Shown in pieces: positions 14,654 to 17,077 of a stretch of DNA of 53,408 bases; within the stretch, counting starts at the first letter, position 1; each line of letters starts with the position of its first letter. Made by a program: the position numbers and the translations under genes. Under the pieces are notes generated by a model. The model ran no database searches and was not told the origin of the DNA. It saw only the letters and a program-made list of their open reading frames with translations. The stretch comes from Halorubrum californiense DSM 19288 (GTDB taxonomy: Archaea > Halobacteriota > Halobacteria > Halobacteriales > Haloferacaceae), in assembly GCF_000336875.1 (NCBI RefSeq), contig NZ_AOJK01000073.1, forward strand, positions 1 through 53,408, read 5' to 3'.

Positions 14654-14803
14654 TCACTCCACGTCGCTGCCGCGGAACAGCGTGAGCTCTTCCGCCTCGT
14701 AGATGCTGATGAGTTCGCTGACGATCTCGTCGTACTCCTCGTCGTCGATCCGGAGCGCGTCGAGCCGCTCGACCGTCTCTTCGTCGAGGTGGATCTGGGG
14801 CAT
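14654..14803 (-). CDS. Small conserved-looking protein, 49 residues
   Basis: A 49-residue acidic protein: MPQIHLDEETVERLDALR..., then DEEYDEIVSELISIYEAEEL and a short end. The pattern of a beta strand (MPQIHLDEET) followed by two helices looks like a short ribbon-helix-helix (antitoxin-like) DNA-binding fold, but no toxin gene is adjacent. A TATA-like TTTTTATGAATT sits about 25 bases before the ATG, which supports a real leaderless gene. It is too short for standard gene-length cut-offs and could easily be missed. Confidence 0.65.
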   Translation of the reverse strand: MPQIHLDEETVERLDALRIDDEEYDEIVSELISIYEAEELTLFRGSDVE

Positions 14804-14869
14804 GGGTGTGGATCCGTGACCAATTCATAAAAATCGGTGGGGAGTGAGACGGTTCGGAGGAACAGGCGC

Positions 14870-17077
14870 TTATTCGCCTCGATACTGTTCGTTCCGACAG
14901 CCGGCCAACTCGGCGTTTGACTGTCCCTCTCTTGCGACCTCGGTTACGTCTTCATCTGAAAGATCGTCGCTCCAGAGGACAATGTCGTTCGGGAACAAAA
15001 CGACCGGAGACTTCTCTGCGTGGATCTGAAGTATGTCCGAGATATCCGCATTTCCGAGGTCGACTTTTGTCCCCACCAGCGTCGATTTCAAGTCGTTGAA
15101 GACGTGGACGACTCGGAATTCCCCGCCGATCAGTACGCCAGTCGAAAGCAGCGACTGGACCGACACGCGGAACGTATCGTCCGAGAGCGGCCGACACGCG
15201 TACAGTTGCGTTGCACGTCCCCGGTCGTTGGCAACAGCAGTGGCCGGATCGCCAGCGTATCGGAGGTCCACGCCCTCATCGGGAAGTGCCAGTTTGGTTG
15301 CGACGCCGACCGGAAAGCTGGCGCTGAGAAGTCCGATCAGGGACCGAATCCGATCCGCGGAGACACGACCGTCGACGAGGAGGGCGCTTACCCCGCCCCG
15401 GTTGACCGCGTCGACGCCGACGGCGATGTCGACCGAATCCTCGAACAGCGTAAACACGGGGCTATCGTTCCGGGTCGCTTTCTCCGAGCGTGACACGTCG
15501 TCAATACCGTCAACCGAGTCGATTACGTCGTTTTGAACTGTGGCCCCGCAGTAAGCGATGTCGAGTTCAGGATCGGATAGCGTCTCCGCTACCTCGTCGG
15601 GAGACGGTGAAGCGAGAACGGTCAGGGATCCGATCCCGTCGAGGTCAGTTGGTTCGGAGAGCGATGCTCGGACGGTACGGGCCCGTTCGGAGTCACCGAA
15701 CAGGAGCGCGACCGCGACAGCCCCGCGCTCCGGGATTTGTCTTTGGATGCGATTCTCGTACGCCGCCGGTGTGAGTGCCGATACGCCGGTCTGTAGCGGC
15801 TCCGTGTCCGGGCTTGGAACGTCGCTCGTCGTCGGTCCACCAGGGGTTGCTACTGACCGCCGCTCCTGGTCGGCGATCGCTCCGCCCGACCTGTCGGAGC
15901 CCGGCAGTTCTGCCAGAGTCTGAGGTGATGTCGCAGCGGCCATCGGCGCGCCCGGTCGCGGAGAGTCCGAATCGCCGCGGACGCAGATCGGCGCGAGGAC
16001 GTGAGCGAGGTGCGGGAGCAGTTCCGCGGCCGCGGGCGCAGGCCGCAGAACCGCCTCCGTCGGCCACGCGGGCAAGTACGGGGCGACCGTCTCGGGGGCG
16101 ACCTCCAAGTACTCCATCAGCCGCTCGCTCATCGACCGGTCGGTGAGCTTCGGCGGATAAAAGGGGAGCACCGGACCGAGTTCCTCGTACGCGTACCGGT
16201 CGGACGGGATGTACCCCTCCGTCCGCGCGAGCGTGTCGAGGAAGAAGCACGTCTTGAACAGCTCCGTGACGCGCTCTTCGAGGGCCCGACCATCGGTCGG
16301 AAGCCGCTCCTCGTACCCGGTGTCCAGCCGGATCGCCGGGGCGTCGCCGGTCGTCATCCGGGCGCCGAGGTAGTACGACAGCGTCGAGAGCCGGAACACG
16401 TCCGCGTACGTCGGTCGGACGACGACCTCGACGCCGGTGTCGGGAACGGTGAGCGGGCTGGGGACCTCGAGCGAGTCGCCGCGCTCGATGCGCGGCGGGT
16501 AGCCGCGGAGGGTCGGCCACGAGCGCTCGGGCGTGAACTCCTTGATCGACGACCCGAGGACGGACACCGCTTCCGTCAGCGCGGTCGGGTCGTCCGGGAC
16601 CGTGATCGTCGCCTCGGGGCGCGTGTGGAGCGACCGCCCGCCGACCGAGACGGTTCTGGGGCGGTCGAACGAAAGCGTGACCGGGCCGGGTCCGGCCGCG
16701 CCGCCCGCGGATATCTCGGCGTCCGTCACCCGTACCAAGACTTTCGTCGCGCCGTTGACCTCGATACAGTACGAACCGCGCGGGAGGTCCATCGGCTCGT
16801 CGAGGCGAGCGACGTGATCGCCGTCGGCATCGCGGACGGCGATCGACGCGTACTCGGGGATCTCGAGCGACCCCGCCTCGAAGCTGACCGCCCGGTCGAT
16901 CGGGGCCGGGAACAGCTCCGGGAGCGCCGGCGAGAGTTCGGGCTCGCGGTCGACGCGGAGTCGAAGCTCGTCGCCCTCGATGGCGTCGCGCACCGTCAGC
17001 GCCGTCCCGTCGACCTCGAACCCGACGCGCCCGTCAGACAACCCATCCGTCACTGAACCTTCCTGATTCACCGACAC
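14870..17077 (-). CDS. Large protein with possible degenerate CHAT-like C-terminal domain
   Basis: A 735-residue protein starting at GTG 17077. Residues 1-375 form a beta-rich N-terminal part (RGSYCIEVNGATKVLVRV, RSLHTRPEATITVPDDP) and a helical part (SERLMEYLEVAPETVAPYLPAWP). After a low-complexity linker (375-435), residues 450-650 follow the order of a CHAT/caspase-like domain: a hydrophobic strand ending LDIAYCGATV where CHAT proteins have a Gly-His, a strand before VNRGGVSALLVDG, a helix SLIGLLSASFPVGVATKLA, and YAGDPATAV. The catalytic His and Cys seem absent, so it would be a pseudoprotease or a different fold. The C-terminal half is visibly less GC-rich. The gene is divergent from a phosphotransferase gene. 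Function unknown. Confidence 0.75.
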   Translation of the reverse strand: MSVNQEGSVTDGLSDGRVGFEVDGTALTVRDAIEGDELRLRVDREPELSPALPELFPAPIDRAVSFEAGSLEIPEYASIAVRDADGDHVARLDEPMDLPRGSYCIEVNGATKVLVRVTDAEISAGGAAGPGPVTLSFDRPRTVSVGGRSLHTRPEATITVPDDPTALTEAVSVLGSSIKEFTPERSWPTLRGYPPRIERGDSLEVPSPLTVPDTGVEVVVRPTYADVFRLSTLSYYLGARMTTGDAPAIRLDTGYEERLPTDGRALEERVTELFKTCFFLDTLARTEGYIPSDRYAYEELGPVLPFYPPKLTDRSMSERLMEYLEVAPETVAPYLPAWPTEAVLRPAPAAAELLPHLAHVLAPICVRGDSDSPRPGAPMAAATSPQTLAELPGSDRSGGAIADQERRSVATPGGPTTSDVPSPDTEPLQTGVSALTPAAYENRIQRQIPERGAVAVALLFGDSERARTVRASLSEPTDLDGIGSLTVLASPSPDEVAETLSDPELDIAYCGATVQNDVIDSVDGIDDVSRSEKATRNDSPVFTLFEDSVDIAVGVDAVNRGGVSALLVDGRVSADRIRSLIGLLSASFPVGVATKLALPDEGVDLRYAGDPATAVANDRGRATQLYACRPLSDDTFRVSVQSLLSTGVLIGGEFRVVHVFNDLKSTLVGTKVDLGNADISDILQIHAEKSPVVLFPNDIVLWSDDLSDEDVTEVAREGQSNAELAGCRNEQYRGE

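Follow-up and report, generated by a model that had tools for sequence, protein, structure and literature searches.

Among described systems, the closest to the protein considered here are the CHAT proteases (PF12770), including SAVED-CHAT (8tl0) and Csx29/TPR-CHAT of Craspase, with which it has a predicted caspase-like core in common. Like the CHAT proteases, the intact relatives of this protein have the His and Cys columns of the active site, and a few of them pass the Pfam CHAT cut-off. Unlike the CHAT proteases, the protein itself lacks both catalytic residues and has no Pfam family, and its N-terminal part is, as far as compared, unlike those of SAVED-CHAT and Csx29/TPR-CHAT. The predicted fold of its C-terminal domain is also common to separase (Z of about 10), which is an active protease. 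A further parallel is c-FLIP(L), an inactive relative of caspase-8: c-FLIP acts on caspase-8, and there too the cell has an active paralogue beside the protein with the dead caspase fold. The predicted C-terminal domain matches the c-FLIP structure at Z 6.8; unlike c-FLIP(L), the present protein has no Pfam match to a death-effector domain.

Caspase-fold proteins that likewise lack the His-Cys pair are the bacterial pseudo-orthocaspases; these are of the p20 type and commonly have Tyr/Ser replacements, whereas the family described here is CHAT-like and archaeal and has variable replacements (PMC6426788). The same p20-type survey reports that no pseudo-orthocaspases were found in Archaea and that 93 archaeal p20 homologues all have an intact pair (PMC6426788), and another study gives p20-type metacaspases for 5 of 114 archaeal genomes (PMC3501461). 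Haloferax volcanii has been described as showing strong caspase-like activity that a pan-caspase inhibitor blocks; the authors give no gene for it and call for the proteins behind it to be identified, and their introduction mentions caspase-like activity in Methanosarcina, Pyrococcus, and Sulfolobus as well (PMC3615174). Our search of the literature outside subscription papers and preprints found no paper on a haloarchaeal CHAT-like family.

Fold and family membership of the window protein

The window is a stretch of 53,408 nucleotides from Halorubrum californiense DSM 19288, and the gene under study is an ORF at 14870-17077 on the minus strand that has a GTG start and encodes a product of 735 residues. 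Judging from the ORF, its homologues, the alignment, and the tree, the protein is almost certainly a dead paralogue (that is, one without the catalytic pair) within a haloarchaeal CHAT-like family. It opens with an N-terminal module of residues ~18-360 (15998-17026, minus strand), delimited by family-wide conservation and the structural model, in which residues 17-148 are modelled as a beta-sandwich and the rest is poorly predicted. A variable linker of low model confidence (residues ~361-430; 15788-15997, minus strand) leads to a CHAT/caspase-like core of residues ~443-620 (15218-15751, minus strand), assigned from structure and profile matches. Searches of Pfam, NCBIfam, and PADLOC with the window protein returned no family at E ≤ 1, which agrees with the original prediction that the family is uncharacterised. 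The Pfam CHAT model PF12770 did not match it at E ≤ 1, nor did Peptidase_C14 p20 in Pfam, and a PDB sequence search with it gave nothing convincing.

Structure prediction and comparison with CHAT and caspase folds revealed the caspase-like core. The full-length protein was modelled with AlphaFold2 together with ten named Halorubrum relatives, and although the model is poor overall (mean pLDDT 52.5) and unreliable in the middle, most of residues 17-148 and 452-720 is predicted with confidence. Residues ~443-617 of this model superimpose on SAVED-CHAT 8tl0 with a Z of 11.9 (rmsd 3.4, 166 aligned residues), and the other structural matches were DdvA (Z 11.2), separases (9-11), gingipain, and Craspase, with caspases lower at about 7. 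When the C-terminal part was modelled alone (residues 427-735; mean pLDDT 70.3, pTM 0.75), the Z values were 10.8 for 8tl0, 10.5 for RgpB, 10.3 each for separase 5fc2 and DdvA, 9.3 for Csx29, and 6.8 for the protease-like domain of c-FLIP. Foldseek gave no match at or below 0.001, its best E being 6.5e-3 for the full model (to an unrelated enzyme) and 3.1e-3 for the C-terminal domain, and its lists contain unrelated enzymes too. Since Foldseek alone is weak, the assignment relies on the matches with Z ≥ 8 being consistently caspase-like. A profile of the C-terminal domain of the dead proteins also aligned with that of the intact CHAT-like proteins in hhalign (probability 99.2, E 2.4e-19, 273 columns). 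Against the PDB, the intact full-length profile found one unrelated chain (E 0.83) and the intact C-terminal profile found only 8tl0, at an E of 0.21 that is not significant alone. The C-terminal domain is thus predicted, with moderate model confidence, to be a CHAT/clan CD caspase-like fold, and the CHAT-like fold that had been surmised for it is borne out by Z values of 9-12 against structures of CHAT proteins and separases.

The family is widespread in haloarchaea. Searched with the window protein, the class Halobacteria yielded matches in 179 of 194 genomes and 58 of 65 genera, and the 15 genomes without one include all three sampled members of one genus (code g3). When 148 genomes of the phylum were searched with a profile of intact members, 23 matched, 19 of them from the order of the window; the remaining four come from one distant family (code f18; G201, G210, G219, and G228). 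Relatives are carried by the ten named Halorubrum loci (all named loci being Halorubrum) and by 25 haloarchaeal plasmid records, and among the plasmid relatives listed one is annotated as "CHAT domain-containing protein" and one as "caspase family protein". In three loci (L079, L099, and L102) family members lie side by side in tandem. The genome of the window holds one more relative, a protein of 715 residues that is 38% identical over the N-terminal part; the intact and dead genes of this genome are not adjacent but lie on contigs C41 and C73. Scans with short conserved patterns, which could miss distant relatives, found none in viruses.

Common descent over both the N-terminal module and the C-terminal domain is supported by full-length homologues, the tree, and the profile match. 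PF12770 gave 16 matches in 59 genomes, all within this haloarchaeal family and three above the Pfam cut-off; in a set of 54 intact members, 14 matched it at E ≤ 1, the best at 2.2e-5. Of ten relatives compared with the CHAT model, two intact ones matched, though below the cut-off, and the other eight, two of them intact and six dead, had no match. Among 14 control genomes PF12770 matched only in Methanosarcina acetivorans, and its failure to match in the control Haloferax volcanii is uninformative on membership because most family members score below the model. The families listed for those 54 proteins included no C14 model, and an NCBIfam search of intact members gave nothing coherent.

The catalytic columns and the dead clade

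An alignment was made of 120 distinct family proteins, from which exact duplicates and rows shorter than 560 residues had been dropped beforehand. The catalytic-type pair, namely the His of H[YF][IV]GH and the Cys of LN[AG]C.S, is present in 71 of the 120 and missing in 49, the window protein included; 48 of these 49 lack both residues. Because the rows were taken closest to the window protein first and not as a random sample, the ratio of 71 to 49 is no frequency. The suspicion that the Gly-His and Cys positions had been replaced around YCGATV (residues 509-514) and FTLFED (residues 542-547) was correct: compared with intact relatives, the column of the invariant His holds T513 (codon 15539-15541, minus strand) and that of the invariant Cys holds S548 (codon 15434-15436, minus strand), the residue directly after FTLFED. 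Predicted strands at 507-510 and 542-546 precede T513 and S548.

Among the dead proteins, the His column contains Pro in 35, Ser in 4, Gly in 4, Ala in 3, Thr in 1, Arg in 1, and a gap in 1, and the Cys column is scattered over 11 residues and gaps. Neither column has a conserved catalytic-type residue, and there is therefore no obvious substitute pair. A second Cys column of the intact members is still Cys in 20 of the 49. Three structural glycines of the paralogue are nevertheless retained in the dead proteins: its G617 in 49 of 49, its G659 in 48, and its G563 in 44. In a maximum-likelihood tree built from N-terminal columns only, thus excluding the active site, the 49 dead proteins fall on one side of a branch with an SH-aLRT of 100 (a quick method with midpoint rooting; some branches are long). 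The dead proteins form one clade, for which a single loss suffices and which has persisted for long alongside intact paralogues. This clade spans 11 sampled genera and four family codes, and the domain is near-complete in nearly all of its members.

Exchange of the C-terminal cassette between lineages

The window and the H. coriense locus (L004) are similar in DNA (identity 0.77-0.96, about 0.87) up to about codon 360, after which identity falls to 0.32-0.59 (about 0.45) from codon 376 to the stop; starting some 90 bases beyond the stop, the 3' flank is again at 0.81-0.94 (about 0.9). The L004 sequence has unread bases inside the dissimilar segment. Fourfold-site differences at identical residues climb from 35/131 to 21/34. 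DNA identity and trees thus delimit a fast-diverging cassette that begins near codon 361-376 and ends some 90 bases beyond the stop (14780-15990, minus strand; edges approximate). Comparable breaks occur in the pairs L006/L018 and L024/L016, the latter including a frame-broken copy, and there is none in L013/L014. The N-terminal tree groups the window with L004 (98/90), and the C-terminal tree groups L004 with L017, L019, L021, and L022 (100/99). AU tests rejected the grouping of each half on the data of the other (p = 2e-8, 0.005, 0.009, and 0.004); the groups tested were named after the trees had been seen, and only the window-L004 sister pair was known before the C-terminal tree. The dead domain in Halorubrum is a cassette that lineages have exchanged, whereas the N-terminal module has remained constant. 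The G+C content of the window cassette is 0.62, against 0.71; intact proteins, too, have less G+C in their C-terminal part (mean 0.596 versus 0.645).

Dead pairs have a far lower C-terminal identity than intact pairs of the same N-terminal identity; in the N-terminal interval 0.65-0.70 it is 0.327 for dead proteins (137 pairs) and 0.615 for intact ones (4 pairs). The dN/dS of the dead domain is 0.25-0.43 in 34 close pairs, compared with 0.06-0.22 for the intact C-terminal domain in 12 pairs, and although dN/dS is meaningless across swapped pairs, the unswapped pair L013/L014 gave 0.31. Purifying selection persists in the dead domain and is looser than in intact ones. Intact proteins have a similar variable block that is mostly confined to about codons 600-700, after the core. 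It appears as a hypervariable block at codons ~600-680 in the pairs L047/L049, L098/L112, and L094/L097, and the flanking DNA is conserved in several pairs.

Genomic company and possible roles

A DUF7504 gene (PF24336) occurs within 4 kb of the intact gene in 25 of 50 loci (a count with one duplicate, as L042 and L050 are apparently the same molecule) and near the dead gene in 0 of 24 loci, neighbouring genes having been called by a simple ORF score. For 17 of 56 intact genes it is the immediate upstream neighbour, in the same orientation; examples near the intact gene are L043:5206-5955 and L047:4219-4935. Since a genome has only about 2-12 DUF7504 copies (21 genomes), this closeness is far above the expectation for scattered copies, with the proviso that related loci are not independent. 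DUF7504 is likely a partner or signal input of the intact putative protease. Fifteen loci share a HalX-type response regulator family close to the intact gene (one member scanned; L047:7399-7989). We found no literature, outside subscription papers and preprints, on DUF7504 or on DdvA with an anti-sigma factor.

What might the dead protein do? Of 38 genomes that carry a dead copy, 37 have a strong intact C-terminal hit, and the window genome has an intact copy too, although this carries little weight by itself, since some family member is present in most (179 of 194) of the haloarchaeal genomes sampled. The sole exception, G072, is a lone suggestive case: it has no intact C-terminal hit, and its dead copy (L033) is frame-broken. 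A broken frame is also seen in the dead copy of G006 (L016), though an intact paralogue is present in that genome. That an intact relative is nearly always present and that the dead domain is swapped suggests a role as regulator or decoy and not as enzyme, and we tentatively infer that the dead protein may be a non-enzymatic partner or regulator of the intact paralogue, a role that we consider quite possible though not yet probable. The shared N-terminal module could bring the same upstream signal to both paralogues or allow joint assembly, and the dead domain might then set the threshold of the active protease, compete with it, or offer it binding surfaces, in a manner analogous to the action of c-FLIP on caspase-8. 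The exchange points to a binding target of the dead domain that is itself changing rapidly.

Alternatively, the protein may be a stand-alone decoy or sensor in conflict, presenting bait or a recognition surface to foreign proteins such as viral protease inhibitors, diversified by cassette exchange and needing no contact with the active paralogue. The exchange between conserved flanks, the AU tests, and the low C-terminal identity of dead pairs at matched N-terminal identity are in keeping with this reading. However, haloarchaea are known to recombine freely, as the abstract of one study also states (PMC3988388), so exchange alone is no proof of conflict. PADLOC matched neither the window protein nor two neighbours, the virus scans found no relative, and no defence genes were recognised among the few neighbours scanned beside the dead gene; we regard a free-standing decoy as somewhat unlikely. 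It is also rather unlikely that the C-terminal domain is a drifting relic of an enzyme, kept mostly for folding while the N-terminal module alone is used. The looser constraint and the frame-broken copies L016 and L033 fit such drift, but dN/dS is well below 1, the structural glycines are retained, a caspase-like fold is predicted, and the domain has stayed near-complete across the breadth of the clade.

Two further explanations appear far less credible than these. Catalysis might persist through other residues, for instance with S548 as nucleophile, or the alignment might miss the true active site; a Ser does occupy the Cys column of the window protein and the second Cys column keeps its Cys in 20 of the 49 dead members, but the absence of both residues from nearly every dead protein, with neither column conserved as catalytic in the clade, makes this very improbable. 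The original prediction had also paired the protein, in sensing or regulation, with the divergent kinase-like gene (APH-type, PF01636; 17191-18276, plus strand). That gene adjoins the dead gene, in divergent orientation, in all ten named Halorubrum loci (with a partial match in L007). The same ten loci, however, also keep DUF5799 and most other neighbours, and the kinase-like gene is absent from 14 of 14 dead-clade loci outside Halorubrum. The arrangement is mere Halorubrum synteny, the gene is placed outside the system, and we have rejected the pairing, which as a functional unit seems very improbable. The DUF5799 gene of the window (PF19113; 14158-14610) is highly conserved beside the dead gene in Halorubrum.

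The dead branch would be an archaeal pseudo-caspase, whereas the p20-type survey had found none among archaeal homologues (PMC6426788). The swapping of its inactive domain is unusual in evolutionary terms and raises the question of what this domain binds. In a broader and rather speculative picture, haloarchaea would hold a class-wide, unrecognised CHAT protease family together with an ancient dead branch in which the sensor module is constant and the inactive protease domain following it is a swappable cassette. This archaeal pseudo-caspase might then act, in variable form, as decoy or inhibitor where proteases govern the fate of cells under stress or viral attack. Although not the whole answer, because 15 of 194 genomes have no match and such activity is reported in Methanosarcina, Pyrococcus, and Sulfolobus too, the intact family, with its invariant His-Cys pair and its presence in most sampled haloarchaea, is a candidate for the unexplained haloarchaeal caspase-like activity, and one that can be deleted and assayed.
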